Below the pieces are notes generated by a model. The model had not been told where the DNA came from and did not search any database. It was given only the letters and a program-made list of their open reading frames with translations. Below, piece after piece: positions 5,843-32,998 of a stretch of 34,031 nucleotides of DNA. Within the stretch, counting starts at the first letter, position 1. Each line of letters opens with the position of its first letter. A program made the position numbers and the translations under genes. This stretch comes from Nodosilinea sp. LEGE 07298 (GTDB taxonomy: Bacteria > Cyanobacteriota > Cyanobacteriia > Phormidesmidales > Phormidesmidaceae), in the NCBI RefSeq assembly GCF_015207265.1, contig NZ_JADEXE010000039.1, positions 1 to 34,031 of the forward strand, in the 5' to 3' direction.

Positions 5843-5844
5843 GC

Positions 5845-8834: not shown

Positions 8835-8857
8835 TAGGAGAAATAGCATTCGCCCAC
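8835..8857 (+). repeat. Decayed GTAGGGGC-type palindrome
   Basis: TAGGAGAAATAGCATTCGCCCAC matches the copy at 13890-13914 (TAGGGGC, AAATAGCATT, TGCCCC, AC) except for two single-base gaps and two substitutions. The internal palindrome is partly lost. Confidence 0.5.
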
Positions 8858-8870
8858 GGTGTTGATTGGA

Positions 8871-9034: not shown

Positions 9035-9215
9035 CCCTCAACCCTGAATCTCGACCAAAGCCGCTCGGTTTTCAAGACGAGGTAAAGAATTCTCTCAGAG
9101 CCCCCCATTTCGGTGTCATCTTAGTGAGAATCTAAACCGATGGGTCACCGGCCTGCGCGGCTCAGGGTGTTTCGGCAAACTCACGCTGACCACCGCTACC
9201 AAGGAGACTCACCCG

Positions 9216-10754: not shown

Positions 10755-10755
10755 G

Positions 10756-10827
10756 GTATCGGGTTTACGGTATACGGTTCACGGTGCAAGGTAAAACCGT
10801 GAACCGTATACCTAACACCGTAAACCC
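10756..10827 (+). repeat. Phased heptamer repeat folding into a long hairpin after chlB
   Basis: Directly after the chlB stop the sequence divides without gaps into ten heptamers. The forward-type units are GTATCGG, GTTTACG, GTATACG, GTTCACG, GTGCAAG and GTAAAAC; the complementary units are CGTGAAC, CGTATAC, CTAACAC and CGTAAAC, then CC. Units at 63-69, 70-76 and 77-83 (prefix 107) pair perfectly with those at 10819, 10805 and 10798. The only interruption in the 3' arm is exactly one heptamer. It sits between convergent genes and probably also acts as a bidirectional terminator. The organisation is reminiscent of the short tandem heptamer (STRR) repeats described in cyanobacteria. Confidence 0.85.
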
Positions 10828-10832
10828 AAAAC

Positions 10833-11366
10833 CTAGCTACCCTCGCAGCCCACCCAGGTGCCCTGGTCTTCGTACACAAAGGGAGAACCGGTCTCACAGA
10901 GCACTGAGATAGCGCTCTGGGGTCCAGGAATAGTTACCTGAGACACAGTGCCGCCTACGGGACCGGGCACATCAGATAGCTCAGGCTCGGCAGGGGAAGA
11001 CTCTAGCTCCACAGTGCCACTAGGGGTAGCTGTTTCACAGCCGACCCAGTCCATACCCATGTCGCTGTAGGCAAACGGGGTAAACCCCTCCTGATTGCAG
11101 GTCACTAGCACCGCGCTCTCGGGGCCGGGCAGTCTGAGCTGTTTCACGGTGCCGCCAGCGGGGCTTTCGACATCGCCAAAAAATACATCAATGGTAGCGC
11201 CAGGTCCTTCGGTGGCAGGAGTTTCAGGAGCAGGGGCATTGGGGTCGAGCACTTCGACTGGAGTGGTGCAGCCCACGGCACCACTCAGGCAGAGTGCTGC
11301 CGCTGCGCCCAGGCGACCCCAGGCCGCCGCAGACACCCTAGCACCGGGTAGACGAAAAAAAGCCAT
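10833..11366 (-). CDS. Putative lipoprotein or secreted protein with a duplicated Cys-containing domain
   Basis: I do not recognise the family. The 177-residue product has an N-terminal hydrophobic signal (LGAAAALCLSGAVG) followed by Cys, a lipobox-like site, though Leu at -3 is missing. A Pro/Glu-rich linker follows, then two copies of a domain of about 40 residues: GGTVKQLRLPGPESAVLVTC ... MDWVGCE and GGTVSQVTIPGPQSAISVLC ... GTWVGCE. Each copy has a pair of Cys that could form a disulfide outside the cytoplasm. ATG 11366 is preferred over ATG 11402, because a TATAAT at 11408-11413 would put transcription start close to 11401. With the upstream start the product would have 189 residues. It is single-gene and convergent with chlB. 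Confidence 0.7.
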   Translation of the reverse strand: MAFFRLPGARVSAAAWGRLGAAAALCLSGAVGCTTPVEVLDPNAPAPETPATEGPGATIDVFFGDVESPAGGTVKQLRLPGPESAVLVTCNQEGFTPFAYSDMGMDWVGCETATPSGTVELESSPAEPELSDVPGPVGGTVSQVTIPGPQSAISVLCETGSPFVYEDQGTWVGCEGS

Positions 11367-11670
11367 AGCAAAACTACCTGTTGAAAGAACATTTTTCAGC
11401 ATTGAGCATTATAAACACTTTGACAATCCGCAGCTTAAGTTGCTAAAGATACGTTTTGGGGCAAGTAAGCTTTTTTTAGTGCCAAAAAACCTGCTAGCTT
11501 TGACAGATTGCTTCAGGCTCCGCTGCCTGCTGGCTGAGCTAATATCTCACGACCAGGCGATCGCGCGTCCTGCGATCGCAAAGATTCATCAGCAGCGGCA
11601 GCGGCCTCAAACCAAGGCAACCTATGATGGCACTAGTGACGGCCCTACTCCCTTTTGCTAGTGCGTAGCC
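11367..11670. other. Divergent intergenic region with two HIP1 octamers
   Basis: This region lies between the minus-strand lipoprotein gene and a plus-strand one-TM protein. It includes the -10 candidate above, a T-rich patch near 11470-11480 and two HIP1-like sites near 11558 and 11572. I see no further structured element; promoters for both genes are expected here. Confidence 0.45.
11408..11413 (-). promoter_or_regulatory. Candidate -10 box TATAAT upstream of the duplicated-domain lipoprotein gene
   Basis: The minus strand reads TATAAT here, a perfect consensus -10. No good -35 is seen at 16-18 bases. Transcription would start near 11401, which favours translation from ATG 11366. Confidence 0.4.
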
Positions 11671-12288
11671 ATGACCCCAACTGACCCAGCGCCCACCTCA
11701 CCTCCTAGCAGCGGTAGTACCGCCAAGTGGGTGGCGATCGGCTGTGGCGGCTGCCTGGGGCTAACGGTGCTAGCTGGATTAGCCTTGGCATTTTTCATCA
11801 ATCGCACCCTGCGATTTGCCGTTGGCCCTGACCAAAGCCCCGGCGAAACCGAGGAGCTGTTTACCTACGCCATCCCCGGCGAGAGCCAGAGCATTTTTAA
11901 CATGGGGATGTTTGGTCTACAGATAATTCAAGTCGCCAGTACCGACTCGCCGCCGTCGGTACTGCTGACGATGGGGCAGCTGCCTAGCTATCTTCAGGGT
12001 CGCGAGGCACAGCAAACTTTTGCCGAGCAGTTTCAGGACAGCGTTTCAACCCAAGGCAACTACCAGCTCGGTGAGCAGCGGTTAGAAGACCGCACCCTCT
12101 GTGGCCAGCCCGTGTCGGTGGTGATACAGTCGGGCAGCTTTTCAGACAGCAATACTACCTACGAAGCCGCTAGCTTGCTAACCTTTGTGGAGTACAACAA
12201 CGACAATCGCTTTGCATGGGTGCTGGCCCATGGCGATACGCCCCAGGCTACCGCCGACCAGGTGTTTGCTACCCTCGACTGTCGTTGA
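11671..12288 (+). CDS. Hypothetical single-pass membrane protein
   Basis: This 205-residue protein is of a family I cannot name. A Pro/Ser/Thr-rich N-terminus of about 18 residues precedes one strong membrane segment (about 24-45, with GCGGCLGLTVLAGLALAFF). The remaining 160 residues form a soluble, mostly beta-like domain with three elements worth noting: FTYAIPGESQSIFNMGMFGLQ, a central TLCGQPVSVV, and the C-terminal ATADQVFATLDC. One Cys in TLCG and one near the C-terminus could pair. ATG 11671 is the first Met; no strong Shine-Dalgarno is visible. The gene is convergent with the GT2-GtrA gene and ends nine bases before a heptamer hairpin. No function is assigned. Confidence 0.75.
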   Translation: MTPTDPAPTSPPSSGSTAKWVAIGCGGCLGLTVLAGLALAFFINRTLRFAVGPDQSPGETEELFTYAIPGESQSIFNMGMFGLQIIQVASTDSPPSVLLTMGQLPSYLQGREAQQTFAEQFQDSVSTQGNYQLGEQRLEDRTLCGQPVSVVIQSGSFSDSNTTYEAASLLTFVEYNNDNRFAWVLAHGDTPQATADQVFATLDCR

Positions 12289-12297
12289 GGCAAGCAG

Positions 12298-12363
12298 GTT
12301 TAGGGTACAAGGTGTCTGGTTTAGGGTAAACCCTTGTACCGGACACCTTGTACCCTAAACCCC
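12298..12363 (+). repeat. Second phased heptamer repeat hairpin, filling a convergent junction
   Basis: Nine contiguous heptamers read GTTTAGG, GTACAAG, GTGTCTG, GTTTAGG, GTAAACC, CTTGTAC, CGGACAC, CTTGTAC and CCTAAAC, then CCC. The outer 20 bases (12297-12316 and 12342-12361) form a perfect inverted repeat, continued by a wobble and two more pairs. The element ends at the base before the stop codon of the minus-strand gene. It has the same architecture as the element after chlB but different heptamers. It is a likely bidirectional terminator. Confidence 0.88.
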
Positions 12364-13692
12364 TCATTTCACCTGCGTCACCCGCCAGCTCAGCTTTAGG
12401 TTGAGCCAAAAATTCCAGAAGGTGACGATTGCAATCGCCACCAAATTTGCCAGGTAGGCCCAGCGCTGGCCAAAGACCAGGTTGTAGACCACATTCAGCA
12501 CCAGCACATTTAGCACCAGCCCCGCCAGGCAGACCAGGTTGAACTTGAGAAAGCGCTTTAGCCGTGCCGACCAGCCTCGCTGTAGCATGCTGACATCGGC
12601 AAAAGTCCAGGCATCATTCCAAATAAAGTTGTTGATAATCGCGACTTCAGCCGCCACAATCTTGCTGCGAGTCAGGGGCAGCCCCAGGGTGCTGTGCAGC
12701 AGGTAGAGAATCACCATATCGACCACCACGCCGCTCAGCCCAACTAGGCCAAAGCGCAAAAACCGCTGCATCGGGAACCGCTGGTGCAGCCGCGACAGCC
12801 GTCCGCCCAGCCGCAGCCGCAGCAGGTGATGAATGTAGTCAACATACTGTCGCCAGGTAACCTTGCTAGCTCCCTCCTGGCGTTCCTGAAACACGTAGCC
12901 CACCTCAGCGATGGTGTCGATGGTGCCACGCCCCAGCACCTCCAGCAAAATTTTGTAGCCTTTGGGGTTGAGCAGCGGGCCTGCGATCGCCTCTCGCCGC
13001 ACCATAAAGTAGCCGCTCATGGGATCGCTCACTCGGCCCACCACCTGGGGCAGCAGCAGCAGCCCCACGGTCTGTGCTCCCCGTGATAGCACCCGCCGGG
13101 TCAGGCTCCACTCGCTGACGCCACCGCCCTCCACATGGCGACTGCCGACTGCCAAATCGGCACCCTGCTGGATGGCTTCTAACAGCCCGACCAACACCTC
13201 GGGGGGATGCTGTAAATCGGCATCGATAACGCCTAAGATTTGCCCTCGGGCGATCTGCCACCCGCGTATCACCGCCGAAGAAAGTCCCCGTTCCTCCAGC
13301 CGCCGCAGCACCCGCACCTGAGGGTAGGTAGCCTGCAATTCCAGGGCCGTAGTCCAGGTTAAGTCGGGGCTGTTGTCATCGACCACAATCAGCTCGTAGT
13401 CGTTGGGCAGCACGCCGTCGAGCAGAGCCGCTAAACGCTCGACCAAGGGAGCGATGTTTTGCCCCTCGTTGTAAGTCGGTATGGTCAGAGATAACGTCAG
13501 CGTTTGCAGCGCTGGGCTATGGTCTGTAGCACTAGGGGTAGCCGCCGATGCCGCCAAGGGTAAAATCTGCAGTGGGCCGCTAGGGCAAGACTCAAGCTTT
13601 TGCAACTGGGATGGAGGAATTAAGGCCACGGCGCAACACACCAACTCTTGCGGTAGCCCAAAGCCCAAAGCGCCACACGAATCTAGCGCCAA
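12364..13692 (-). CDS. Family 2 glycosyltransferase (dolichyl/polyprenyl-phosphate sugar synthase type) fused to GtrA domain
   Basis: The cytoplasmic GT2 domain transfers a sugar from a nucleotide donor to a polyprenyl phosphate, and the C-terminal GtrA-like membrane domain is thought to anchor or move the lipid-linked sugar. The GT2 domain starts near residue 67 (LSLTIPTYNEGQNI), with VVDDNSPD, the DXD motif in IDADLQHPPE, and MSGYFMVRR. The GtrA domain (about 310-440) has four hydrophobic helices, beginning FLRFGLVGLSGVVVDM and including NNFIWNDAWTF. The start is uncertain: TTG at 13692 gives 442 residues, but the first 65 are Ala/Ser/Pro-rich and poorly conserved-looking, so a later start (for example a GTG near residue 19) is possible. 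Exact sugar and acceptor unknown. Confidence 0.88.
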   Translation of the reverse strand: MALDSCGALGFGLPQELVCCAVALIPPSQLQKLESCPSGPLQILPLAASAATPSATDHSPALQTLTLSLTIPTYNEGQNIAPLVERLAALLDGVLPNDYELIVVDDNSPDLTWTTALELQATYPQVRVLRRLEERGLSSAVIRGWQIARGQILGVIDADLQHPPEVLVGLLEAIQQGADLAVGSRHVEGGGVSEWSLTRRVLSRGAQTVGLLLLPQVVGRVSDPMSGYFMVRREAIAGPLLNPKGYKILLEVLGRGTIDTIAEVGYVFQERQEGASKVTWRQYVDYIHHLLRLRLGGRLSRLHQRFPMQRFLRFGLVGLSGVVVDMVILYLLHSTLGLPLTRSKIVAAEVAIINNFIWNDAWTFADVSMLQRGWSARLKRFLKFNLVCLAGLVLNVLVLNVVYNLVFGQRWAYLANLVAIAIVTFWNFWLNLKLSWRVTQVK

Positions 13693-14011
13693 TGCCTCAA
13701 GCCAACCGAAATTTTACATAAGCAATCATCCTACAGCAGTCGCTCCCCCACCGTAAATAATGGCGTGCTCAAGTAAAAAGCGATCCAGGAAGCTTTCACA
13801 ATTTCAAATCCTGTGCTAGCGATCGGGCACAGCCAGCACCTGATACTAAATCCAAATCACACAACCCCAGTTCCACAAAGGCCAAACCGTAGGGGCAAAT
13901 AGCATTTGCCCCACCAATTTAAGGAGTAACTCACCCCGTCGAATGTGTCTGAGGGAAGAGAGGGGCCATCATTTGGTTGCGTATTATACAGTGATCCATT
14001 GAGGAACTGAT
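13693..14011. other. Divergent intergenic region
   Basis: This region lies between the GT2-GtrA gene and the small secreted protein gene. It contains one member of the GTAGGGGC palindrome family (13890-13914) and an AT-rich stretch just before 14000 (TATTATACA at 13982-13990) that may be the -10 of the downstream gene. Confidence 0.4.
13890..13914 (+). repeat. GTAGGGGC-type palindromic repeat
   Basis: GGGGCAAAT at 13892-13900 and ATTTGCCCC at 13904-13912 are exact reverse complements separated by AGC. It shares the flank and stem type of the copies at 33031 and 33111 and of the decayed copy at 8835. Confidence 0.75.
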
Positions 14012-14356
14012 ATGCAACGCCTAATCACCCGCTCTAGAGAATGGTTTAGTGACCGTCTGCGCGCGATCGCCCTGGTTAGCTTGGTCGGCATCATGGGCTG
14101 GCTCATGCTGGCCAGTCAGCCTGCCTACGCCGCCGAAGCCCAACGGGCTTCTACCCCAACCGTCGATAAGACCATGACTGCAGAACCCCGAGATCAGGCC
14201 TACGACGAGGCCCTAGAGGTGATTGACAACCCCAACGGGGTGCAAAATACCTACGAAGAAAATCTCAAACAGTACCGCCAGGAAAATCCTGACCAAGGTG
14301 GTGTCGTCGCAGGCGCTAAAGAATTGGTCGAGAAAATCACGCCCAACCGCAAATAA
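14012..14356 (+). CDS. Small secreted (periplasmic or lumenal) protein
   Basis: This 114-residue protein has a classic signal peptide: basic start (MQRLITRSREWFSDRLR), hydrophobic core (AIALVSLVGIMGWLMLA) and an AXA site (SQPAYA, cleavage after about residue 41). The mature part of about 73 residues is hydrophilic and probably helical, with the phrase NPNGVQNTYEENLKQYRQENP and a Lys-rich C-terminus. I cannot name the family; small exported cyanobacterial proteins with this layout are common and some respond to stress. GAGGA at 14001-14005 is well spaced before the ATG. It stands alone, divergent from the glycosyltransferase and convergent with pyrD. Confidence 0.8.
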   Translation: MQRLITRSREWFSDRLRAIALVSLVGIMGWLMLASQPAYAAEAQRASTPTVDKTMTAEPRDQAYDEALEVIDNPNGVQNTYEENLKQYRQENPDQGGVVAGAKELVEKITPNRK

Positions 14357-14357
14357 G

Positions 14358-14446
14358 GGATTGCCCAAAGTTTTGTGGGATAGCCGTCTAGTCAAGACAG
14401 GCAGGATGCCTATTCCCACAAGACATCTCAAAGTTTTGGCCAATCC
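14358..14446. terminator. Imperfect large inverted repeat between the secreted-protein gene and pyrD
   Basis: GGATTG at 14358-14363 pairs with CAATCC at 14441-14446. Inside, TTGTGGGA-TAG (14373-14383) pairs with CTATTCCCACAA (14410-14421) with one bulge. The decamer CAAAGTTTTG also occurs directly repeated at 14366-14375 and 14429-14438. This looks like a partly decayed bidirectional terminator. Confidence 0.45.
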
Positions 14447-14526
14447 GCTAATGAAAGGTCATACAAGTTTCTAATCGCCTGCCCGTAAAAGCCGCAAATC
14501 AGGGAATTTTTCAGCTACTACAACTG

Positions 14527-15687
14527 TCACAAGCGATGGCTCAGCCCCACAGCATCACTAATGCTAGGCAGCTGGTGCTCCTCTAGCTTGGCCAGCAGCC
14601 CTTTCAGCACTCGCCGCACCATCCAGGGGCCTTCGTAAACCCAGCCGGTGTAGACCTGAAGCAGAGTAGCCCCCGCGACAATTTTTTCCCAGGCATCAGC
14701 GGCGGTAAAGATACCCCCCACACCCACAATCGGCAGGCTGCCCCCGGTGCGCTGGTAGATGTAGTGAATCACCTCGGTTGATCGCTGGCGTAGAGGGGCA
14801 CCGCTGATGCCGCCCGCCTCTTCTGCGACCCGGTTGCCGGTTTGTAGCAAGGTTTGGGTTTTGAGCCTTTCTTTGGCGATCGTGGTGTTGGTGGCAATTA
14901 TGCCCGCCAGTTCATAGGCTTGGGCCAGTTCAACGACAGCGTCAATGTCGGGCCAGGCCAGGTCGGGAGCAATCTTGACCAGCAGCGGTTTGCCAGCGCT
15001 ATTTTCTGCCTGCAATGCCGCCAAAATTGGGCCTAGCTGGTCGGCAGCCTGCAGCGATCTGAGCCCTGGCGTATTAGGTGACGACACATTCACCACAAAG
15101 TAGTCGCCGTAGGGGTAGAGCCGCTGAAAGCTCACTCGATAGTCATCAGCGGCATCGGCTAGCTCAGTCACCTTCGATTTACCCAAATTAATCCCAATCG
15201 GAATGCTGGGGCGATCGCTGTACCAGTAGGCGGCCAGGCGATCGGCCAGGGCCGCAGACCCCTGATTGTTAAAGCCCATACGGTTCAACACCGCCTCATC
15301 CTGCACCAGGCGAAACAGCCGGGGCTGCGGGTTGCCCGGCTGAGCATAGCAGGTGACCGTACCCAGTTCGGCAAAGCCAAAACCCAGCAGAGGCCAGGTC
15401 GGGGCCGCCGTTCCGTCTTTGTCGAAGCCCGCCGCTAGGCCCAAGGGGTTGGCAAAGGTCAGACCCCAGCAGGTTTGGGCCAAACGCGGGTCGCTGAGGC
15501 AAAACTGCTGCCGCAGCCACGGCCGGGCGCGGGCTGCCATCGGATGCTGGCCCGGCTGCCCCAGCCAGGTCAGCAGATTCATCGTGCGGTGGTGCAGAAA
15601 TTCTGGGTCGAGCGTGACGCCATGAAATAAGAGCGGGCGCACAAGCTGGCGGTAAGGATCTTTCACAGACGGTAGTGGTAAATGCAA
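14527..15687 (-). CDS. pyrD: Dihydroorotate dehydrogenase, quinone-dependent (class 2)
   Basis: This enzyme carries out the fourth step of de novo pyrimidine synthesis: it oxidises dihydroorotate to orotate with FMN and passes electrons to quinone at the membrane. The 386 residues include a class 2 N-terminal helical extension ([10 protein letters not shown], then HHRTMNLL), absent in class 1 enzymes. FMN and substrate motifs are clear: [37 protein letters not shown] with the class 2 catalytic Ser, [20 protein letters not shown] and VGVGGI. The start is TTG at 15687; an in-frame GTG at 15666 removes seven residues and is equally plausible, since neither has a strong Shine-Dalgarno. It is monocistronic here. 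Confidence 0.96.
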
Positions 15688-16070
15688 ACGGCGGGCAGGG
15701 TAAACTGATATTCAGGCTAAAGGTACAACTCTGGCTGTCAGTGGCCTTTGCAACGATGGAGCACGCCAGATGAGCACAACGGTTAGCGGTCTTAAAGGGG
15801 GAGGTGAGGCGTTCGACTGTCACCTTACCCCATTAAAGCAGCCCTGGAGGCTAGCTTAGAGCCGCTTGGCAGATCTGGGTGGAGTCTACAGCAATCAAAC
15901 CGCCATTGCCTGGCCAGTCTTAGTCTTACTAAGAACTAGCCGAGTGGACGGAAGGTGGTGCGATGAGCGTCCTAGGCAACTCTAGGGGGCTGACATTGGG
16001 TTAGCTTAAAACCCAGGCCAGTCTTTTTTGACTGATCTCTTCCCTGCAACCGAAGCGAGTGTTGACGCCA
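15688..16070. other. Divergent region between pyrD and the multi-GAF gene
   Basis: These 383 bases hold no convincing gene. A small inverted repeat TCTTAGT-CTT-ACTAAGA spans 15918-15934. The decamer GGCCAGTCTT occurs at 15912-15921, overlapping this repeat, and again at 16016-16025, followed by a T-run. CAGTC-TTTTTT-GACTG lies at 16019-16034. These could be operator or leader structures for the divergent genes. Confidence 0.4.
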
Positions 16071-18917
16071 ATGGCGCAATCCCAACCCCACGATTCTTCC
16101 TCCGACCGGCACGAGCATCAAATCATGGCTCTGTCGCGCATTCTCAAGGCGCTGCGGGGTGCCATAACGGCAGAGGAAGCCGTGACCCTGGCCCTCAACC
16201 ATGTGCACCAGGAGTTTTCTTTTGAAGTGGCCTGGGTTGGCCTTTACGATCGAGTCAACCATCGTCTGGTGACAAAGGGCTGCCATAGCCCCCGCCAGAT
16301 GCGTTCCATCCGTACCATGATCAACCTCACCCCTGGGGATGTGATGGAGCAGGTAGTGGTTCAGCAGCGGCCCCTGATCGTGGCCGACCTGCAAAACGAA
16401 ATTCGGGCCGGAGAGTGGGGCACCATCGCCAAACAGCTCGCCCTGCAAAGCGCCATTTTTTTCCCAGTTAAGCGCCAGGAGGTTTGCTTTGGCCTGCTGG
16501 TGCTGGCCTCCCCCGACTGGGGTAAAAGTGCCTCTTTGGGTGAGCGCTCTTACCTGGCCATTGTGATGGGCGAGCTAGCCGAGGCGCTGCACCATTTTGA
16601 GTCTGAGCAGCAGCGCCTGCAGACCAAGCGCCTAGGGCAACCCCTGCTGGCCCTGATTGGTCGCCTGGGCAACCTGCCTGATATCGACAGTCAGCTCACA
16701 GAACTCGTGCGCGAAACCCAGCGATTTATTACCCCCCAGCGCACCCGAATTTTTTGGTTTGAGCCGAAGGGCAACTATTTTTGGCAGCGCACACCGGGGT
16801 CGGCGACTCGACCTGCCCTACCAGAGGACGATCGATCGCTGCATATTGCCGTCGACGAGGTGCGTGGCCTCTATCAGGCACTGGGCAACCAGCAGCTGGT
16901 AGTGGTAGGCGAAAGCCGGGGCGCACTCAAAAGCATCATTTCCGATCGCCTGATGCAGCAGCTCCGAGCCCAGTCGCTGATGATTGCCCCCATCAGCCGC
17001 CAGGGCGATCTGATGGGTTTTTTGTCGGTAGAAGGCACCGTACCGCGCATCTGGGAGGAGTCTGAAAAGCAGTTTCTCATCGGTGCTGCCCAGCTGCTCA
17101 GTGTGGCCTTACCCGCTGCCGTCGCCAAAGAAACCGGACGCCAAACCGAGCTTGATCAGCACCTCACCACCGGAGTGATTCAGGGCATCCACGGCGATGT
17201 TGACTGGCAGCAAACCCTGCAGACCTGCTTCACCGTACTGCAAGACCGGCTGGGCATTCAGCAGTTTTTTGTGCTGTTATTCAACCCCGATCGCAATGGT
17301 TACGACCTCTGCTTTCAAAGCCAGGCTGGTCGCCCCCGAGGGGTACCCATGCTGTGGCCCTGCCTCGATGATGTCGATTGGCAAATGCTAGAGCGCAGCC
17401 CGGCGGCCATCAGTATCGACAATCTCACCCACGAACTCAAGCTAATGGCCTGGCGGCCCCACCTGCTTGACCTGGGTGCCCAGGCGGTACTGGTAGGCAA
17501 TGTCGCCCCTGGTAACGCCCCCGAGGGCATGGTGCTAATCTGCGACAGCATCAGCCGCCAGTGGACCACCACAGAGCAATCGCTATTTGAGGGGGTGGCC
17601 CGCCAGATTGGGGTAATTTTGCACCAGTGGCAGCTGCAGCGCCAGCTCGACCAGCAGCAGCATATTTATGAGTCGATTCAGTGGGGCCTACAGGCGCTTC
17701 ATCAGGAGCTGAACCCTGACCAGCTCGAACAGGTTACTCTGCAGCATGTCATGCAGCTGCTGCATGGGTCGGCGGTACTGCTGGTGAGCTGGTCACCGGG
17801 TAGTGCTACAGCCACCGTGACGCAGATGGTGAGTCAAGATACCAGCGTTAGTGTCGATACCCATCACCTGATTCCGGTGGGGTCTGATGCCCTAGTTAAC
17901 TGGGCGCTGCAAACCGACGGCATACTGCCCCTCTGCGTCGATGAGCTACCGACCGAAACCAGTGCCTGGTTTAGAGCGGTTGCGGGCAGTCGCCTCCTAA
18001 TTACGGCTCTGAGAACAGCCCCATCGCACACGGTAACGGGCATAGCGGTGGCGGTGTCGCTGCCCCACCGTCAGTGGGCCAACCACCACTTCACGATCTT
18101 TAAGCTGCTGACTAGCCAGCTCGCCTGGTCGCAGCGACACCTGGCCATGACCACCATGCTCACTCAGCAACGCCAGGAGCTCGAAAACCTGAATTGGTAC
18201 AAGCACCACCGCCTAGAAGACCTGTATCGCATGCTCGGTAAGCTAGCCCAGGATTTGGCCCACCTGCAGGCCAAAGACACCGCGATCGCAGGCGAGCTAC
18301 AGCTGCTCCACGGTCAGATTGCCGCCGTCATGGAAAATGCTGAGGTGGTTCTGGTCGGCGAGCGCTGGCAGCTTCATTGCGAGCATCAGACCATGCCGCT
18401 GATTAGCCTACTCAATCGTCTGATCGAGCGCGTCAACCCCATTCTAGAAGCCCGCCAGCTCTGGTCTAAGGTTCACAACGAGAGCAACGTGGTGCTCGGG
18501 GGCGACATGCTCAAGCTCGAGCTGATTCTCTACGAAATCATGGCGGCCGCTTGCAACCGATCGCCCGTGGGAGGGCGCATTGACCTCTGGTGTCGGGTGC
18601 TCAACCTAGATTGGGTCGAGCTTTCGGTTACTGACGATGGGCAGTGTTTACCCCGCCTGCTGGACGAACTCAGCCAAAGTCAGCCGCTAGACGTGCTGGC
18701 CCCTTCGGTCCTAGATGGCCCACCGGGACTGCATCTAGCGATTTGCAAACTGCTGATCGATCAGCTTGGGGGTGAAATCAGCTTCTCTACCCTCGACGAT
18801 GGCCGTACCCACAGCCGTGTTCTGCTGCCCCTAGCCGCCTACCCTGAACAGCACAAAACCAAACCGCTCATCCACTCAACTCCTCCCGCAGAAGCCAGCT
18901 ATCCTAGCCCCACCTAG
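16071..18917 (+). CDS. Multi-GAF sensor protein with degenerate histidine-kinase-like C-terminus
   Basis: This 948-residue protein has no membrane segments. At least three, probably four, GAF-like domains fill residues about 20-690; GAF-type strand patterns include VAWVGLYDRVNHRL, SAIFFPVKRQEVCFGLLVLA and SLMIAPISRQGDLMGFLSV. A helical stretch with WYKHHRLEDLYR (His712 or His713) stands where HisKA would be. An HATPase-like domain (about 790-925) follows, but it is altered: the N-box reads YEIMAAACNRS without the Mg-binding Asn, and the G1 box reads DDGQCL instead of DxGxG. The G2-like GPPGLHLAICKLL is present. It may be a weak or inactive kinase that acts by binding. ATG 16071 is chosen; a GTG 12 bases upstream is possible. 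It is a single gene, and its signals are unknown. Confidence 0.85.
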   Translation: MAQSQPHDSSSDRHEHQIMALSRILKALRGAITAEEAVTLALNHVHQEFSFEVAWVGLYDRVNHRLVTKGCHSPRQMRSIRTMINLTPGDVMEQVVVQQRPLIVADLQNEIRAGEWGTIAKQLALQSAIFFPVKRQEVCFGLLVLASPDWGKSASLGERSYLAIVMGELAEALHHFESEQQRLQTKRLGQPLLALIGRLGNLPDIDSQLTELVRETQRFITPQRTRIFWFEPKGNYFWQRTPGSATRPALPEDDRSLHIAVDEVRGLYQALGNQQLVVVGESRGALKSIISDRLMQQLRAQSLMIAPISRQGDLMGFLSVEGTVPRIWEESEKQFLIGAAQLLSVALPAAVAKETGRQTELDQHLTTGVIQGIHGDVDWQQTLQTCFTVLQDRLGIQQFFVLLFNPDRNGYDLCFQSQAGRPRGVPMLWPCLDDVDWQMLERSPAAISIDNLTHELKLMAWRPHLLDLGAQAVLVGNVAPGNAPEGMVLICDSISRQWTTTEQSLFEGVARQIGVILHQWQLQRQLDQQQHIYESIQWGLQALHQELNPDQLEQVTLQHVMQLLHGSAVLLVSWSPGSATATVTQMVSQDTSVSVDTHHLIPVGSDALVNWALQTDGILPLCVDELPTETSAWFRAVAGSRLLITALRTAPSHTVTGIAVAVSLPHRQWANHHFTIFKLLTSQLAWSQRHLAMTTMLTQQRQELENLNWYKHHRLEDLYRMLGKLAQDLAHLQAKDTAIAGELQLLHGQIAAVMENAEVVLVGERWQLHCEHQTMPLISLLNRLIERVNPILEARQLWSKVHNESNVVLGGDMLKLELILYEIMAAACNRSPVGGRIDLWCRVLNLDWVELSVTDDGQCLPRLLDELSQSQPLDVLAPSVLDGPPGLHLAICKLLIDQLGGEISFSTLDDGRTHSRVLLPLAAYPEQHKTKPLIHSTPPAEASYPSPT

Positions 18918-19017
18918 CGCAGCGATTAGAGTACGCCTATACAAATGTTACTGAAATGGGCGTTTCGATGGTCCATGACCAGCCCAGCAGGGCCAACGCC
19001 GAAAGCCTTGATTTGCT

Positions 19018-25280: not shown

Positions 25281-26084
25281 ATGACAGAGCCAAGCCTGAA
25301 GGCTAGACGCATTCTTAAAACCCGTGTAGATGCTACAAGCTACACCGATGCCTGCAATCGCATCCAAACTTGGGCCGAGCAGGAGCGATCGTGCTATGTG
25401 GTTGCGGCTAACGTGCATGTGGTGATGACTGCCTACTGGGATGCGCAGTACCAGCGTATTCTCGAAGGCGCGGCCCTGGTCACCTCAGACGGCATGCCGC
25501 TGGTGATGGGGCTACGACTGCTGGGCATACCGGGTCAAAGCCGAGTCTACGGTCCAGATCTAATGCTGGCCTGGTGCGATCGCGCGGCTCAGTTCGATCT
25601 GCCGATCTATCTCTACGGCGGCACCAACTCCATACTGGAGAAGATGGCGGTCTACCTGCAAGGGCAATTTCCTGGCCTGCCTATTGCCGGTACCCATGCG
25701 CCCCCGTTTCGTCCATTGTCATCGGCAGAAGCCGCAGCTGATATAGATCGGATTAACCAGTCGGGGGCCAGAGTCGTGTTTGTGGGCCTGGGCTGCCCCA
25801 AGCAAGAGCAGTGGATGCACCGTCACCAGGGGCAAGTTCAGGCCGTCATGATCGGTGTGGGAGCGGCGTTTAGCTTTTTTAGTGGCGACGTTTCTCAGGC
25901 TCCCCGATGGATGATGCGTCTGGGGCTAGAGTGGCTCTACCGCTTTGCCCAGGAACCGCGCCGCCTGTGGCAGCGCTACTTGATCAACAACCCGGCGTTT
26001 GTGCTGCTGTTTGGGGCGCAGGTGGCTAGGTACAGGCTGTTGGGAGCGCGGAGTAGGGAACAGGGTTCAGGGTTTAAGGTTTAG
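25281..26084 (+). CDS. WecG/TagA/CpsF-family glycosyltransferase (GT26)
   Basis: Family members transfer N-acetylmannosamine(-uronate) or a related sugar to a polyprenyl-diphosphate-linked sugar at the inner face of the membrane, the second step of a repeat unit. The 267-residue protein shows the family landmarks: VAANVHVVMTAYWD, the catalytic-site Asp in VTSDGMPLV, YGPDLML, LYGGT, VFVGLGCPKQEQWM, and GVGAAFSFFSGDVSQAPRWM, ending with EWLYRFAQEPRRLWQRY. AAGGG at 25268 supports ATG 25281. The final residues (about REQGSGFKV) are encoded by a heptamer repeat that runs across the stop codon, so the tail is probably repeat-derived. It leads a same-strand block with an initiating sugar-phosphate transferase and polymerase/ligase-like genes. 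Confidence 0.93.
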   Translation: MTEPSLKARRILKTRVDATSYTDACNRIQTWAEQERSCYVVAANVHVVMTAYWDAQYQRILEGAALVTSDGMPLVMGLRLLGIPGQSRVYGPDLMLAWCDRAAQFDLPIYLYGGTNSILEKMAVYLQGQFPGLPIAGTHAPPFRPLSSAEAAADIDRINQSGARVVFVGLGCPKQEQWMHRHQGQVQAVMIGVGAAFSFFSGDVSQAPRWMMRLGLEWLYRFAQEPRRLWQRYLINNPAFVLLFGAQVARYRLLGARSREQGSGFKV

Positions 26085-26120: not shown

Positions 26121-26167
26121 TTCGACTTCGCTCAACCTTCAGTGATCGAGGGCTGAGCGAAGTCGAA
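26121..26167. repeat. 14-bp inverted repeat TTCGACTTCGCTCA ... TGAGCGAAGTCGAA
   Basis: Arms 26121-26134 and 26154-26167 are perfect reverse complements with a 19-base loop that can pair partly (CCTTC with GAGGG). This TTCGACTTCGCTCA word is familiar to me from intergenic dispersed repeats of several bacterial phyla. It sits between two same-direction genes and may attenuate read-through. Confidence 0.75.
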
Positions 26168-26324
26168 GTCCGATCAGCAAGTACCTTATTTTCTTGCGAG
26201 TCCCTTAGAACTTGTGTACACCCTTAAACCCGGCGCGTTACCTCAAACCCATTCCCAATGATGGTTTCTCAGCACAATTGCGGAATACTAGGGGCAACTT
26301 GATCCCTTGCGTCTGCCCCTTGCT

Positions 26325-27791
26325 ATGGATTGCCACCGCGCTGTACCCGCTGTCATGCATCAGCGGCCCCGCCACCGTCAAGATATTCGTGCCCCTCGGG
26401 GGCTGAAGCTACAGCTGCGCGATGCGGTTACTGGGCCGGGGCGGCGGAGTCTGGTGCTCTTAACCACCGATATTTTGGCGCTAGGGCTGTCGTGGCACAT
26501 TGCCAGGTCGCTCAACCAGTTCTTTTCGCCGATTCCGCCGCAGCTGGTGTGGTGGACCTGGCTGGGATTGCCCAGCCCCTTTTGGGTGCTGGTAGCCTGT
26601 AGCGTGGGGCTATTTGCCTACGGCGGTCTCTACGACACCACCTCTCAGGGACAACGACATCTGCGGGCGGGCAAGCTGCTGAGCCTGGTCTACCTGGGGT
26701 CGCTGGTGGTGATGTACTTTTATGACCCAAAGCTCGATTTGCCGCGATCGCTGTTCTTCTCAGCCTGGTTTAGCGGGGTGGGCCTGGTAGTGGGGCTAAG
26801 GCTGGTGGCAACGCTGTTGCTGCGCCCCCTAACTCAAGCGAAGATGCCATCCTCAGTATTTTTGATTGCCCCCGCTCCTCGGCTCAAGCGCCTGGCCGAC
26901 GTGCTATCTCAGCGGGCTAATGTGCCGGTGATTGGGGCAGCGCTGGCCACTACCGCCAACTCAGCCACCACGTATCAAGCAATTTTGGCTTCGGGGGCAA
27001 CACTGGTGCTGGCCGAGAGTATTCCCTCGGCTGACCTGGCTTCAGAACTGTACTGGAAGCTGCGGCGGGCGGGCATTGGCATGCAGCTGCTGCCCACCAG
27101 CCGCGATATGCTCTACCGCCGAGGTACCCCTGAAACCGTGGCCGGTCTGCCCACGCTGCGCCTTGATGCACCCCTGATGGGCGGCTGGGACTACCGCTTC
27201 AAGCGCTGGATGGACTACCTGGGAGCGGGGCTTGGCGTTCTAGCGCTAGGCCCGCTCCTGATGGGCATTGCTCTGGCCATTCGGCTCGACTCGCCGGGGC
27301 CAATTTTCTTTCGCCAGGAGCGGGTGGGGCTGCACGGCAAGCGCTTTCAGGTGTGGAAGTTTCGCACTATGGTGGCTGATGCGCCCCGGTTGCAGGCGAA
27401 TTTAGAGCAGCACAACGAGTCGGCGGATGGCGTGTTGTTTAAGGTGAAGTACGATCCACGCATTACCCGAGTGGGTCGCCTGCTGCGCCGCACCAGCCTA
27501 GATGAGTTGCCCCAGCTGTTTAACGTGCTCTGCGGCCAGATGAGTTTAGTGGGGCCGCGTCCCCTGCCCGTGCGCGATGTGGCTAAGTTTGACGGCTGGC
27601 ACAATATTCGCCACCAGGTGCTGCCGGGAGTGACCGGCCTATGGCAAATTTCGGGCCGTTCTGACATTGATACCTTTGACGATGTAGCTCGCCTCGACCT
27701 GCACTACATCGATAACTGGTCTTTGAATCTGGATTTAGAAATTCTCACCGCCACCCTGGGCATTGTGCTGTGGGGTAAGGGGGCCTATTGA
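26325..27791 (+). CDS. Polyprenyl-phosphate sugar-phosphate transferase (exopolysaccharide initiating enzyme, WbaP/CpsE type)
   Basis: This protein transfers a sugar phosphate (galactose, glucose or similar) from a UDP-sugar to undecaprenyl phosphate, starting a polysaccharide repeat unit. It has a long N-terminal part with about four membrane helices (from SLVLLTTDILALGLSW on) and a central CoA-binding-like soluble domain (VFLIAPAPRLKRL). A membrane re-entrant helix (MDYLGAGLGVLALGPLL) leads to the catalytic domain: DSPGPIFFRQERVG, FRTMVADA, RRTSLDELPQLFNVL with the conserved Asp-Glu, MSLVGPRPLP and PGVTGLWQISGR. The start is ambiguous: TTG 26307, ATG 26325 (used here, 488 residues) or ATG 26355, none with a clear Shine-Dalgarno. 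Its TGA overlaps the TTG start of the next gene. Confidence 0.94.
   Translation: MDCHRAVPAVMHQRPRHRQDIRAPRGLKLQLRDAVTGPGRRSLVLLTTDILALGLSWHIARSLNQFFSPIPPQLVWWTWLGLPSPFWVLVACSVGLFAYGGLYDTTSQGQRHLRAGKLLSLVYLGSLVVMYFYDPKLDLPRSLFFSAWFSGVGLVVGLRLVATLLLRPLTQAKMPSSVFLIAPAPRLKRLADVLSQRANVPVIGAALATTANSATTYQAILASGATLVLAESIPSADLASELYWKLRRAGIGMQLLPTSRDMLYRRGTPETVAGLPTLRLDAPLMGGWDYRFKRWMDYLGAGLGVLALGPLLMGIALAIRLDSPGPIFFRQERVGLHGKRFQVWKFRTMVADAPRLQANLEQHNESADGVLFKVKYDPRITRVGRLLRRTSLDELPQLFNVLCGQMSLVGPRPLPVRDVAKFDGWHNIRHQVLPGVTGLWQISGRSDIDTFDDVARLDLHYIDNWSLNLDLEILTATLGIVLWGKGAY
27777..27783 (+). promoter_or_regulatory. Shine-Dalgarno-like AAGGGGG supporting a TTG start at 27788
   Basis: This G-rich run in the end of the upstream gene lies four bases before TTG 27788. 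Together with the TTGA start/stop overlap it supports translation from TTG, since the next in-frame ATG is more than 50 codons downstream inside the first membrane segment. Confidence 0.55.
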
Positions 27792-30427
27792 CCGCCGATC
27801 CTTCCCCTACTCCGGCGGCCGCAAAGTCTCAAGGTGCGGTTGAGCGAGGGGTCAGATTTCTGCGCCGCTGTCTGGCTAACGTGCCGCTCTGGCTGGCCGG
27901 AGGGCTGGTGCTGCTGGTGTTTAGCTGGCTGCCGCTGAGCTACTACCGCATGGTGGGTTGGGCCTGGATTTTGCTCTGGCAGGTTGGGGCTGTGGCCTTG
28001 CTGGTGGCGCTGTGGCGGCAGTTACGAGGCTCGCACCGTGCAAACCCTGAGTCAGGGTTATCCAGCTTGGAGGTGACATCAAAGTTTGAATTCCATGGGC
28101 TGGGCTATGGGCTAGATTGGGTGGCGCTGGCGCTGGGAATTGTTGTGCTGTTGTCGGCGGTGGTGTCGCCCTTTCCCCGCGTAGCGCTGTGGAACGTGAG
28201 CCTGGTTGTGACCTACGGTGCGGTGCTGTACGTCTATCGCAACGTGGTCGATACGCCTGGGGCGCGGCCTTGCCAACGCACCTGGTTAACCCGCCTGCGG
28301 CTATGGTGGGGCTTAGTGGTGGTGGCTGCGGGCACAGCGGTAGTCAGCCTGGGGCTGTGGCGTCCCGATGCGGCTATGTGGGCCTCAGAGAATTTTTTGA
28401 CGGCCCTGCGCAACCATCAACCCCTGGGCCACCACAACTTTGTGGGCGGCTATTTTACCCTGATGGCGCCGCTGGCGGCGGCGGCGGCGATCGCCGCCCA
28501 GGGTTGGATGCGAAGGATTTGGATCGCAACCGCCGGGCTGCTGCTGCTGGCCCTGTATGTCAGCGGCTCGCGCGGGGCAATTTTGGGCCTGGTAGTTTGG
28601 CTAGGGGTGACCTGGCTCAGCCGCCTGAATCGGGTGAAGCCGATTCATCGCGGGCGCTGGGTGCTGGCTGGGCTGGGCGGTGCGATCGCCGTGGGGTTAG
28701 CCCTGGCTAGCAATCCTCGCATTCGCACCTGGTTTAGCGCTGGGGGGCTGGCCGATGGCCCCACCCTCGATCGCTGGTTTATGCTGCGCCTGGGAAGCAA
28801 CATTCTGCGCGATCGCCCCCTGTTGGGGGTTGGCCCTGGGGTAATGAGTCGGGTGTCGAACCTCTATCGCCCGATCGAAGCTGGGGCTGGGCTTGACCAT
28901 ATTCAGCAGCTGCACAATACCCCGGTGCAGCTTGCCGGAGAACTGGGCCTTCTGGGGTTGGCGGTGCTGCTGGCTGGAATGGTGCTGGTGCTGCGCCTGT
29001 GGATACGCCTGTGGCGACAGCCGCTGAAAACGACCGATCGCGCGCTGCTGGGCGGCATTGGTGGCAGCCTGCTGACCTACGGGGTCTCTAGCCTGACCGA
29101 CTATCAACTCGAAAATATTCCCATTGCGGGTGCGCTGCTGGGGGTAGTGGTGCTGCTGCTGGCGCTGGGCGATCGCTATCTTCCCCAACCCATGCCCATC
29201 GGAGCAGATGCCAGGCAGCACGGCTACCTGGCAGTAGCCCTATGGCTGGGGCTGCTGCTGACTATTTGGCTGCCCTTTACCCTTACGGTGGCCTACGGTG
29301 CCCTGGCCGATCGCGCCTTTTACAGCCAGCAGCTCAACCTGGCCGATACTCGCTGGTACAAGGCCTATCGCCTCAGCCCGTGGGATCCGACCGCTGCGGC
29401 GGTGGCCACTGAGGCACTGTGGGGCCTAGACCAGATGCTGGGCGACTCGGAGGCGCAGGAAAATGTGCGATCGCTCATGCTCGACTACGCCCAGCAGGCC
29501 CAGCAGGCAGCCCCTAACGATGGTTGGTTTAACCACAACCTGGCGGTACTGCACCAGACTACCGACCCCGCTAGCGCCCTGCCCTATGCCGCCCGCGCCG
29601 TGCAGCTTATGCCCCGCCACCAGCACTACGGCTATTGGCTGCTAGGCGATCTGCTGTTGCAAGCAGGCGAGACTAGACAGGCGATCGCCGCCTTTACCCT
29701 AGAAGTTCTGGTCAACCCTGCGGCCCTCACCTATCCCCACTGGCAGGAGGCTCCCTACCAGGCGATCTACCCCGCCGTGGCTCGGGCTACTCTGGCGGAG
29801 TACGACACCCTGCTGGCCGGGGTTTCTGCCGCTAGCCCCGCTTTTCAAGCCCTCTACGAAACCCGCGTCTTGCTAGCCTGGTGGACAAAGCAGCCGATGG
29901 TGGAGGTGGCCCCTAACCTGCTGCGTCCAGTTGTTGCCGCGCTGCTGCGGGCCGACTCTGATCCCGCTGCTGCCTTGGAAGCTGTAGAGCATAACCTCAG
30001 CTTGGGGCAGCAGTCCCCCGAGCTTAAGCTCCTGGCCACCTGGCTTGACCCTCAGGCACATCCAGCTCCGGCCCAGCCCCAGGATGTACCGTCTGACCTC
30101 GATGCTTTGCTGATTGAAGAAAGCCTGGCTATCCGTCCACTGCGCCTGTGGCTCAGCTCTATTGTCACCCGTCCCGACGAGGGCTACCGGGGGTCGTTAA
30201 CCTTTGCTTACCGCAATTACCAGGCCAAGCAAATTACCCTCATGCTGACGCCGCACAACCTCCAGCGCTATACCCTGGTGGCCAAGCTCAACCTCTTTCC
30301 GGCCTGGCCGAGAGAGTTTCCGGCTCTCGATCGCCGCATTGAGGCCCTACGTACCAAATCGTTGGGCCTGCCCCATCCCACCCACAACCGCTTTCGCCTC
30401 TCAGATTTAGATTTGTCTACCTCCTGA
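27788..30427 (+). CDS. O-antigen ligase/polymerase-like membrane protein with TPR-like C-terminal half (copy 1)
   Basis: An 879-residue two-part protein. Residues about 35-520 form a polytopic membrane domain of the Wzy/WaaL (O-antigen ligase) superfamily. It carries the motifs HQPLGHHNFVGGYF (near 208), SGSRGAILGL, LLGVGPGVMSR (near 347) and QLHNTPVQLAGELGLLG (near 375), where the His is in the usual catalytic loop. The rest is a soluble, helical part, probably outside the cytoplasm, with TPR-like helix pairs (APNDGWFNHNLAVLH, then YWLLGDLLLQAGETRQAIAAF). Proteins of this kind polymerise or attach polyprenyl-linked glycans, or glycosylate proteins, outside the cytoplasm. The TTG start overlaps the previous stop. 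The downstream gene is a paralogue with the same architecture. Glycan and acceptor are unknown. Confidence 0.87.
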   Translation: MTADPSPTPAAAKSQGAVERGVRFLRRCLANVPLWLAGGLVLLVFSWLPLSYYRMVGWAWILLWQVGAVALLVALWRQLRGSHRANPESGLSSLEVTSKFEFHGLGYGLDWVALALGIVVLLSAVVSPFPRVALWNVSLVVTYGAVLYVYRNVVDTPGARPCQRTWLTRLRLWWGLVVVAAGTAVVSLGLWRPDAAMWASENFLTALRNHQPLGHHNFVGGYFTLMAPLAAAAAIAAQGWMRRIWIATAGLLLLALYVSGSRGAILGLVVWLGVTWLSRLNRVKPIHRGRWVLAGLGGAIAVGLALASNPRIRTWFSAGGLADGPTLDRWFMLRLGSNILRDRPLLGVGPGVMSRVSNLYRPIEAGAGLDHIQQLHNTPVQLAGELGLLGLAVLLAGMVLVLRLWIRLWRQPLKTTDRALLGGIGGSLLTYGVSSLTDYQLENIPIAGALLGVVVLLLALGDRYLPQPMPIGADARQHGYLAVALWLGLLLTIWLPFTLTVAYGALADRAFYSQQLNLADTRWYKAYRLSPWDPTAAAVATEALWGLDQMLGDSEAQENVRSLMLDYAQQAQQAAPNDGWFNHNLAVLHQTTDPASALPYAARAVQLMPRHQHYGYWLLGDLLLQAGETRQAIAAFTLEVLVNPAALTYPHWQEAPYQAIYPAVARATLAEYDTLLAGVSAASPAFQALYETRVLLAWWTKQPMVEVAPNLLRPVVAALLRADSDPAAALEAVEHNLSLGQQSPELKLLATWLDPQAHPAPAQPQDVPSDLDALLIEESLAIRPLRLWLSSIVTRPDEGYRGSLTFAYRNYQAKQITLMLTPHNLQRYTLVAKLNLFPAWPREFPALDRRIEALRTKSLGLPHPTHNRFRLSDLDLSTS

Positions 30428-30439
30428 ACCCCCGCCGCC

Positions 30440-32998
30440 ATGACCGAGGATGCTCTACCCAAACCCAAACCCGTTGCCCAGGATCCCAGCGATGGCACCC
30501 TGCTGGCCCTGCTGGCAGCGGCATTGTACGTCATTTTCACCCTGCTGCCGGGCAGCAGCACCCTGATGGTGTCGTGGCCCTGGGTGTTTTTGTGGCAGGT
30601 GGGGCTGACCCTGCCTCTGCTCTGGCTGCTATGGCAACTGTGGCATCGGCCCGTGGAGCGCTTAGGCAATGGTTTTGACTGGATGGCGCTGCTGGCGATC
30701 GCGGGACTGATCATCTCCACCCTGGCGGCTGACTTTCCGGCCCAGGCGAGGTGGTACGGGTGGGCCGCAGTGGGGGCGATCGCGGCCGTCTACGCCCTCG
30801 GCGGCTGGTTACGCTACGGCCAACGCCTGCACACGTTGCTGCGGTTTCAGGGGTACGTCGCCCTGGCGTTTATTCTGCTCAGTTTGGGGCTGTGGCTGAC
30901 TCAGATCTATCAGCCGGAGCTGGCTCGGCTGGCCGCGCTGCAGAGCTATGGCGTCGATCAGTCCTTCAGCTTTGCGCTGACCAGCCTGCGCAACTGGCAG
31001 CCCATCGGCCACCAAAACTATGTGGCGGGCTACCTGGTGCTGGTGTTGCCCCTGCTTGCCGCGCTGGCTTGGGTGGAGCGGGGCTGGCACCGCTGGCTAT
31101 GGCTGGTGGGCCTGGGGCTGGGCCTGCTCAACCTCTACACCACCAGCTCGCGCGGCGGCTGGCTGGCGCTGATGGTCACCGGGCTACTCGCCGTCGGCAT
31201 TTCTCTGCTTTACAACCGCCTGCCCCGGCCTTTGGCCCTAGCCCTGGGTGGCACGGCCCTGGGCTTGCTGGTGCTGGGCTTTGTGGCAAACCCGCGACTG
31301 CGGCAGGTTTTGGGCAATCTGGCCCAGGGCAATTTTGAGGGCGGCGAGCTGTCTTACCGAGTAGTGACTAACGCTGTGGGCTGGCGCATGGGTATCAGCC
31401 AGCCCTTGACTGGTGTGGGGCCGGGTAGTGTGCCGCTGGTGTACCAGCAGTATCGGCCTAACTGGGCCGGGCGCGACGCCGAGCTGCAGTTTCAGCTCCA
31501 CAGCACCCCGGCTCAGCTCTGGGGCGAGTTTGGGATTTGGGGAGTGGTAGTGCCCCTGGCGCTGGTGCTGGTGCTGGTGGTGCTGACGGTGCGGTGGATG
31601 CGGTGGGGTGCCCAGGAGACTCCAGCCGGGCTGCCGCCAGTGCTAGTTTGGAGCCTGCTGGCGGGACTATTTGCCTTTGGGCTGATGAGCCTTACCGACT
31701 ACCAGCTCGACATTCCCGCGATCGCAGGCGCGATCGCCCTCTACCTGGCCGTGCTCGCCCGCAGCTTTAACCCCGTTTCCACAACCGAGGACGGTGCCGC
31801 ATCGCCGCGCCGTCACCGCTGGCTGGCCGGATTGGGCCTGGGACTGACTCTGGCGATGACCCTCTGGCTGGTGCCCGCCCACCGCGCATGGGGCACCGCC
31901 AGCAGCGGCTTTTCGGCCCTTACCGATCAGCCTGCCGACTTCGATCGCTTCGCCAGCCAGGTAGCACAGGCCCACGACCTGGCCCCCTGGGAGCCCTACT
32001 ACCCCTATCAGCTGGGCTACCACCTGGGCGAGTTTGCGCTGCAGTCGAGCGACAACCCGCCCCTGCGCCAGACCTTGCTCACCGATGCGATCGCCTGGTT
32101 TGAGACCGGCAACGAGATCGTGCCTTACCAGGAGTTTGGCCACTCGAACCTGGGCTGGCTTCAGATTGAGAATGGCAAACCGGCTGAGGCGCAGGCGTCG
32201 TTTACGAATGCGATCGCCCTGGTGCCCGCCAAACGGGGCGTATTCTTTGGGCTGGGGGTGGCCTGCCTGCAAACCGGCAATCTCGACTGCGCGACCGAGG
32301 CTTTAACCCTGGAGATCGTTCGCCATCCCGCCCTGCTGACTAGCTCGCTGTGGCAGATTCCGCCCTTCGTTACCCTGTACCCGGCGGTGCTCGATCGGCT
32401 GGAGCAGCGCTACAGCGAGCTGATTTCGCAGGCCGACGATCCTGAGTTTGAGCAATTTTTGCGGCAGGCTCGCGGCAGTTTGCGCTGGTGGCGCGGCGAC
32501 CTAGAAGCCGCCGCCGAAGACTGGCCCGCCAATGACGATCTGCGGCAGGGGCTGCTGGCGCTAGCTGCTGGCCAAACCGTCGATGCCTCTTCCTGGGCTG
32601 AAACTCCGGCTAAATACGCGATTTTGGCCTGGCAAACCCCTGACCAGCGCCAGGAACTGCTGCAGCGGGCCTGGGTGACCCAGCCCGAGGATGTTGACGA
32701 CCTGACTCAGGCGCTGCCGCCGTCCCAGGTGATTGATCAGCTGACAGCCAGTATGGAAAATGCCAACAATTTTACCGACTGGCTACGCACAGCCCCCAGC
32801 TGGCAACCCCGCAGTGAGCGACTGGGGTTTGGGGTGCTGAGCCGCCATATCGATGGCCCCAACCCATCAGATTTTTTTCCGCGAGTTGAGAATATTCCCG
32901 TTGTGCAGTTCTTTGAGTCGCTGTTTCCGTCGCCGATCTTTTATCCGGCGCTGGATAACGCGCTGGAACCGTATCAGAACAGGCTGCGATCGCAGTAG
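30440..32998 (+). CDS. O-antigen ligase/polymerase-like membrane protein with TPR C-terminal half (copy 2)
   Basis: An 852-residue paralogue of the preceding protein. The membrane domain has NWQPIGHQNYVAGYL (near 184), TSSRGGWLALM, LTGVGPGSVPLVY (near 324) and QLHSTPAQLWGEFGIWG (near 352). The soluble half has clearer TPR units (YQEFGHSNLGWLQIENGKPA and VFFGLGVACLQTGNLD). Both copies share the motif W..PPF..LYPAV or W.EAPYQAIYPAV and a similar C-terminal element (FP....FPALDRRIE in copy 1, FP....YPALDNALE in copy 2). ATG 30440 follows the copy-1 stop by 12 bases; no clear Shine-Dalgarno, so expression may depend on read-through translation. The divergence in sequence suggests an old duplication with distinct substrates or partners (inference). 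Confidence 0.88.
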   Translation: MTEDALPKPKPVAQDPSDGTLLALLAAALYVIFTLLPGSSTLMVSWPWVFLWQVGLTLPLLWLLWQLWHRPVERLGNGFDWMALLAIAGLIISTLAADFPAQARWYGWAAVGAIAAVYALGGWLRYGQRLHTLLRFQGYVALAFILLSLGLWLTQIYQPELARLAALQSYGVDQSFSFALTSLRNWQPIGHQNYVAGYLVLVLPLLAALAWVERGWHRWLWLVGLGLGLLNLYTTSSRGGWLALMVTGLLAVGISLLYNRLPRPLALALGGTALGLLVLGFVANPRLRQVLGNLAQGNFEGGELSYRVVTNAVGWRMGISQPLTGVGPGSVPLVYQQYRPNWAGRDAELQFQLHSTPAQLWGEFGIWGVVVPLALVLVLVVLTVRWMRWGAQETPAGLPPVLVWSLLAGLFAFGLMSLTDYQLDIPAIAGAIALYLAVLARSFNPVSTTEDGAASPRRHRWLAGLGLGLTLAMTLWLVPAHRAWGTASSGFSALTDQPADFDRFASQVAQAHDLAPWEPYYPYQLGYHLGEFALQSSDNPPLRQTLLTDAIAWFETGNEIVPYQEFGHSNLGWLQIENGKPAEAQASFTNAIALVPAKRGVFFGLGVACLQTGNLDCATEALTLEIVRHPALLTSSLWQIPPFVTLYPAVLDRLEQRYSELISQADDPEFEQFLRQARGSLRWWRGDLEAAAEDWPANDDLRQGLLALAAGQTVDASSWAETPAKYAILAWQTPDQRQELLQRAWVTQPEDVDDLTQALPPSQVIDQLTASMENANNFTDWLRTAPSWQPRSERLGFGVLSRHIDGPNPSDFFPRVENIPVVQFFESLFPSPIFYPALDNALEPYQNRLRSQ

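Follow-up and report, generated by a model that had tools for sequence, protein, structure and literature searches.

Copies A and B, two large adjacent genes in a cyanobacterial glycan gene run from Nodosilinea, belong to two anciently separated signature classes of Wzy_C proteins, and B is predicted to join a WaaL fold to a TPR half. We consider it close to an even chance that both are TPR-fused, WaaL-fold O-oligosaccharide ligases whose acceptor is most likely a protein, foremost a pilin, and that a conserved protein, here called X, assists them. The link of A and B themselves to pilins is indirect: it comes from relatives and from a third paralogue, C, with neither X nor a pilin gene standing beside A and B in the window.

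Gene layout, domains and predicted fold of A and B

The window, by which we mean the whole stretch of 34,031 nucleotides that was analysed, is the complete contig C381 of a 7.25-Mb genome in 617 contigs, so the neighbourhood of the locus stops at the window ends. The genes of the locus lie on its forward strand. A gene for a GT26 glycosyltransferase of the WecG/TagA/CpsF type (25281-26084; PF03808, 1.9e-63; TIGR00696 above its cut-off) is followed by one for an initiating polyprenyl glycosylphosphotransferase, PGT (26307-27791; PF02397, 1.4e-63; TIGR03025, 373 bits with a cut-off of 295.55). Copy A, a putative TPR-fused Wzy_C ligase of 879 aa placed in the GHHNF class by the tree (27788-30427; PF04932, 8.3e-16), starts with TTG and shares 4 bases with the end of the PGT gene; copy B, its 852-aa counterpart placed in the GHxNY class (30440-32998; PF04932, 1.3e-17; tree and AF2 model), follows 12 bases after A. 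With this overlap and this spacing, PGT, A and B resemble one operon. The ORF list and the Pfam and TIGRFAM matches bear out the original prediction of two head-to-tail ligase/TPR reading frames downstream of the GT26 and initiating-transferase genes. The interval between the WecG and PGT genes holds an imperfect inverted repeat (26121-26167; 20-nt arms, 7-nt loop) that contains GAGCGAAGTCGAA; it occurs once within the window and is possibly a dispersed repeat.

Both copies are members of PF04932 (Wzy_C), A with 58.5 bits and B with 64.5 bits at a cut-off of 31.7; the domain spans 28529-28972 in A and 31112-31552 in B. Neither PglL_A nor Wzy_C_2 appeared among their Pfam matches at E values up to 1, and the IctB profile TIGR00947 had no listed match for either protein. 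The class signature is GHHNF in A (residues 214-218, 28427-28441), which matches the pattern GH[HPQ]N[FY], and GHQNY in B (residues 190-194, 31007-31021). As had been claimed, the His-containing loop is present in both copies, as QLHNTP in A (His 376, 28913-28915) and QLHSTP in B (His 354, 31499-31501), and 72 of 73 homologues share the histidine. Two arginines, R311 and R329 in A and R286 and R307 in B, are found in all 73. We take the loop histidine and these arginines to be putative equivalents of catalytic residues.

Outside these motifs, A and B have diverged as widely as the original prediction held, with 31% identity over 708 columns by BLASTP (E 2e-39). The C-terminal FP-x-PALD element that it had described as a shared mark exists in both, as LFPAWPREFPALD in A (residues 836-848, 30293-30331) and as LFPSPIFYPALD in B (residues 828-839, 32921-32956), but proved loose as a signature: P-x-LD occurs within the last 70 residues in 20 of the 38 A-class proteins and in 46 of the 80 in the B class, and an exact PALD in 9 and 17 of them, respectively.

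The AF2 model of B was built from 47 sequences (pLDDT 90.2, pTM 0.88). Its best PDB match was WaaL 7tpg, with Z 20.4 and an rmsd of 5.0 over 378 of 403 residues, covering B residues 14-447; the next-best row in the structure alignment had Z 15.2. Foldseek alone gave no match to the model at E 0.001 or better, WaaL standing at E 1.2e-3. From about residue 480 onward, the model aligns to TPR proteins, and the superhelix so delimited (about residues 478-761, 31871-32722) agrees with the TPR-like soluble half that had been proposed. TPR Pfam matches were clear for B (TPR_16 at 5e-6, under its curated cut-off) and marginal for A (0.03). B as modelled is a WaaL fold followed by a TPR half, and the TPR halves of A and B are probably periplasmic.

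Age, distribution and genomic setting of the ligase classes

With a threshold of E 1e-30 and at most three candidates scored per genome, the ligase was detected in 125 of the 290 genomes of the class. A set of 137 homologues was reduced to 123 by dropping copies with an identical C-terminal part; of these 123, all more than 760 aa long, 38 carry GHHN, 80 carry GH[QPA]NY and five carry neither. In a tree of 73 of the 123, hand-picked for spread and made by a quick search with SH-aLRT support only, the GHHNF class with A and C and the GHxNY class with B lie on opposite sides of one branch with an SH-aLRT of 100. A groups with the A proteins of Nodosilinea, B with its B proteins, and C falls inside the A class. 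Nine alignment columns are diagnostic of the two classes, and an SRHxDG tail marks 65 of the 80 B-class proteins and none of the 38 in the A class. A and B are an ancient pair of sister copies. A recent duplication confined to the strain, the outcome that the original prediction had named as telling against it, was considered and rejected on this phylogeny, in which the class split is old.

The B class extends to Microcystis, Pseudanabaena, Chroococcus and others, usually with one match per genome. Adjacent A-B pairs turned up within the family to which the window belongs, and the diverged pair is kept side by side in many genomes of family f1. In two loci, a 171-aa reading frame lies between A and B (L051, 7157-8000; L110, 9289-10045) and has no pilin-motif match. 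Other clusters retain the remaining module genes but have a single ligase, B in L050, L250 and L255 and an A-class gene in L260, and each of these four genomes has one ligase match. A single-copy orthologue doing both jobs in relatives had also been named as telling against it; the single copy, at least, is found within the same genus (L050, from Nodosilinea sp. P-1105).

The original prediction had further noted that Wzx, Wzz and export proteins were missing from the window. Pfam matched none of them among the 19 ORFs scanned, of 46 with at least 100 aa, many of them overlapping. The observation is uninformative: elsewhere the genome has four Polysacc_synt (Wzx type) matches, two Wzz matches above the cut-off and one below it, and four Poly_export matches, so the absence reflects gene scatter only. 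The lack of a flippase was rejected as a clue on these grounds and on the presence of a Wzx-type gene inside the ligase clusters of relatives (L050 and L109). The genome encodes six PF04932 proteins, namely A, B, the TPR-fused C on contig C163, IctB on contig C270 (TIGR00947, 568 bits) and two stand-alone proteins of 425-429 aa.

In two clusters of family f25, exporter genes of the Wzt type and the ligase share a single same-strand run; the exporter genes are ABC2_membrane and Wzt in L244, and Wzt in L245. The L245 ligase is of the B class; that of L244 is incomplete at the end of the stretch and was left unclassed. In both loci, X is divergent at the head of the glycan cluster, about 14 kb from the ligase. 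The L244 cluster (3054-19000) lies on one strand and has ABC2_membrane and Wzt instead of Wzx, together with WecG, PGT and the TPR ligase.

Protein X, paralogue C and the pilin neighbourhoods

X is a conserved protein of about 270 aa that is nearly always single-copy (e.g. L097, 10575-11426; L050, 9848-10654). It had no Pfam match and no PDB relative by sequence, and its model (pLDDT 58, six sequences) is poor and usable only as 'helical'. In three loci (L202, L203, L204), a pilA1-like gene, a pilA2-like gene and then X follow one another directly on the same strand, which is the order of pilA1-pilA2-sll1696. From this gene order, we infer that X is the counterpart of Synechocystis Sll1696. 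The genus g53, which we take to be Synechocystis from its PilA1-like protein, has X in four of five genomes; in three genomes of this genus (G095, G232, G262), the ligase is not adjacent to X. In G095, a 340-aa reading frame that looks transposase-like by eye (L175, 7600-8650) lies between the pilA2-like gene and X.

The pilA1-pilA2-sll1696 locus is reported to promote PilA1 glycosylation (PMC8546353). In the portion of that report drawn on here, a form taken for non-glycosylated PilA1 appears in the pilA2 mutant, and glycosylated prepilin is almost absent when both pilA2 and pilD are deleted. Its authors suspect Sll1696, whose homologues often map near pilin genes; the effect on glycosylation described in that portion comes from pilA2 mutants, not from deletion of sll1696 alone.

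Paralogue C sits between X and a pilin gene in nine of the nine Nodosilinea C loci fetched, with the pilin 84-109 bases from C. In the window's genome (L097 on contig C163, 7185-11426), C is flanked by a divergent Sll1696-like gene and by a pilin with Pilin_GH and N_methyl matches. X and a pilin adjoin with no ligase between them in L191 and L195, two loci of the window's genus where C is not nearby. In other genera of the family, the cluster of WecG, PGT and one or more ligases itself converges on X and a pilin. Counting all genomes other than the window's, with the Nodosilinea locus L050 included, nine loci show this convergence (L050, L054, L066, L071, L106, L109, L250, L255 and L260). Around A and B, neither Pfam, run on 19 ORFs, nor a motif scan picked up a pilin anywhere in the window, and X is likewise not adjacent. 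The suggestion that the soluble halves choose the acceptor, a protein for instance, thus gains support from the pilin and X ties of relatives and of C, and finds none beside A and B.

Among 24 distinct loci with both X and a ligase, 18 have a motif-bearing pilin and one (L260) a pilin recognised by profile only; the five without a pilin are L087 and L237, which stop at contig ends, and L108, L244 and L245. A pilin within 5 kb is absent from all 81 ligase loci that lack X, and most B-class genes accordingly show no pilin link; in L057, L240 and L246, the pilin lies just outside this limit, 5.6-6.0 kb from the ligase. Around X, a pilin was found within 5 kb in 11 of the first 40 loci and in 21 of all 55, some of the later 15 being drawn from a genus or families where pilins had turned up before.

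The starts of X and the ligase are less than 6 kb apart in 18 of 93 genomes, compared with about 0.3 expected by chance, a figure that assumes 5.5 Mb, ignores phylogeny and uses positions transcribed by hand. The 93 are the genomes with both positions among the matches listed, of 124 that have both genes, and the listing favours relatives of the query. Seventeen of the 18 tight cases belong to the single family f1 and one to f20; independent linkage events are therefore few. X is present in 124 of 125 ligase genomes and in 237 of 290 overall (Fisher 1e-13, with lists and counts compared by eye and phylogeny ignored). A further 113 of the 290 genomes have X but no detected TPR ligase, which means that this ligase cannot be all that X depends on. 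Of the 20 X-less genomes listed, 13 belong to the small-genome family f2.

Proposed function and known systems

In the mechanism that we propose, PGT would initiate a glycan on a polyprenyl carrier, WecG would extend it there together with glycosyltransferases from other loci, and a flippase or exporter encoded elsewhere would turn it over. A and B would then take the glycan off the carrier and attach it to an acceptor that the TPR half holds. This acceptor would most likely be a protein, above all PilA, the type IV pilin, or one of its relatives, with the Sll1696-like X assisting. In Nodosilinea, it is C that has the pilin neighbourhood, so the acceptor of A and B may be a pilin, a minor pilin or something else at the surface.

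The picture in which one copy, A or B, is the Wzy polymerase of repeat units and the other ligates the polymer seems to us improbable. The diverged copies kept adjacent in so many f1 genomes, with their nine class-diagnostic columns, are what such a division of labour might leave behind, but the B-only and A-class-only clusters, which have the same partners and one ligase match per genome, argue against an obligatory polymerase/ligase pair, and the split put forward in the original prediction is not supported in that form. The two short Wzy_C proteins of 425-429 aa could polymerise instead. The ligase is also present in Wzt-type clusters. ABC-exported glycans are completed in the cytoplasm, so Wzy is not needed there, and the single-ligase and Wzt-type clusters together favour ligation over polymerisation.

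More serious, though still unlikely in our estimation, is the alternative that A and B are ordinary O-antigen or capsule ligases acting on lipid or sugar, with a TPR half that serves complex assembly and a coincidental link to pilins. PGT and WecG are typical of EPS and O-antigen loci, the X-less ligase loci are without nearby pilins (0 of 81 within 5 kb), and the class is handled as EPS Wzy/WaaL in the part of Pereira 2015 considered here (PMC4594306). Against this, neighbourhoods with X and a pilin recur for both ligase classes, and X accompanies the ligase in all genomes but one, an association confounded by phylogeny. We give a similarly low likelihood to the idea that the paralogues handle the same glycan and differ in the protein acceptor chosen by the TPR half, a pilin for C and others for A and B. 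The genome does have three paralogues, of which C alone has a pilin and X as neighbours, but no acceptor gene was recognised for A or B in the window. This idea is inseparable by sequence alone from the pilin-directed ligase reading that we prefer and overlaps with it, so the likelihoods given here do not sum to one.

That Synechocystis glycosylates PilA1 is established, and the modification matters for its pili and for membrane health. In the literature searched, which leaves most subscription papers outside, no transferase was named for it, and a TPR-fused, X-associated cyanobacterial ligase was not met. Other pilin-glycosylation genes of Synechocystis have been named, none of them called a ligase in the part of the source considered (PMC7076178), and deletion of sll0737, one wzy copy, is described in the corresponding part of another as giving no evident phenotype (PMC6562117). 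As a wider and more tentative proposal, which we hold with less assurance than the ligase reading of A and B, TPR-fused WaaL-fold proteins could be the missing type IV pilin oligosaccharyltransferases of many cyanobacteria; the Sll1696 partner may present the pilin, and A, B and C may be acceptor-specific. The link of these Wzy/WaaL proteins to pilins and Sll1696 offers a candidate for the missing pilus-glycosylation enzyme that is testable in laboratory strains. It also calls for caution, since genes listed as EPS polymerases in cyanobacteria may in fact encode ligases for protein glycosylation.

The family meets several known systems in part. A, B and C carry GHHNF, GHQNY and GHHNF, respectively, and so match the motif GH[HPQ]N[FY] of the second cyanobacterial Wzy/WaaL group of Pereira et al. 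2015 (PMC4594306); the part of that study considered describes neither a two-class split nor a tie to pilins. TIGR03097, a putative O-glycosylation ligase (exosortase A) model, matches the ligase domain weakly (A 29.5 bits, C 41 bits), far under its cut-off of 188.1 bits, and its 408 positions end with the ligase part. Pilin O-oligosaccharyltransferases of the ligase superfamily are already known, and the genes for TfpO, TfpM and PglS often lie close to that of their pilin (PMC12645811, in the part drawn on here). Like the pilin-specific enzymes TfpO/PilO and TfpM, the cyanobacterial proteins have an O-antigen-ligase domain without PglL_A or Wzy_C_2 and, for paralogue C and relatives, a gene near a pilin; unlike them, they have a TPR half, X as a neighbour and a putative activity, and A and B are not near a pilin. 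With WaaL (7tpg), A and B share the PF04932 domain and the conserved loop histidine, and B the predicted fold over residues 14-447 (Z 20.4), whereas their acceptor is probably not the lipid A core and they carry about 370 further residues as a C-terminal TPR half.
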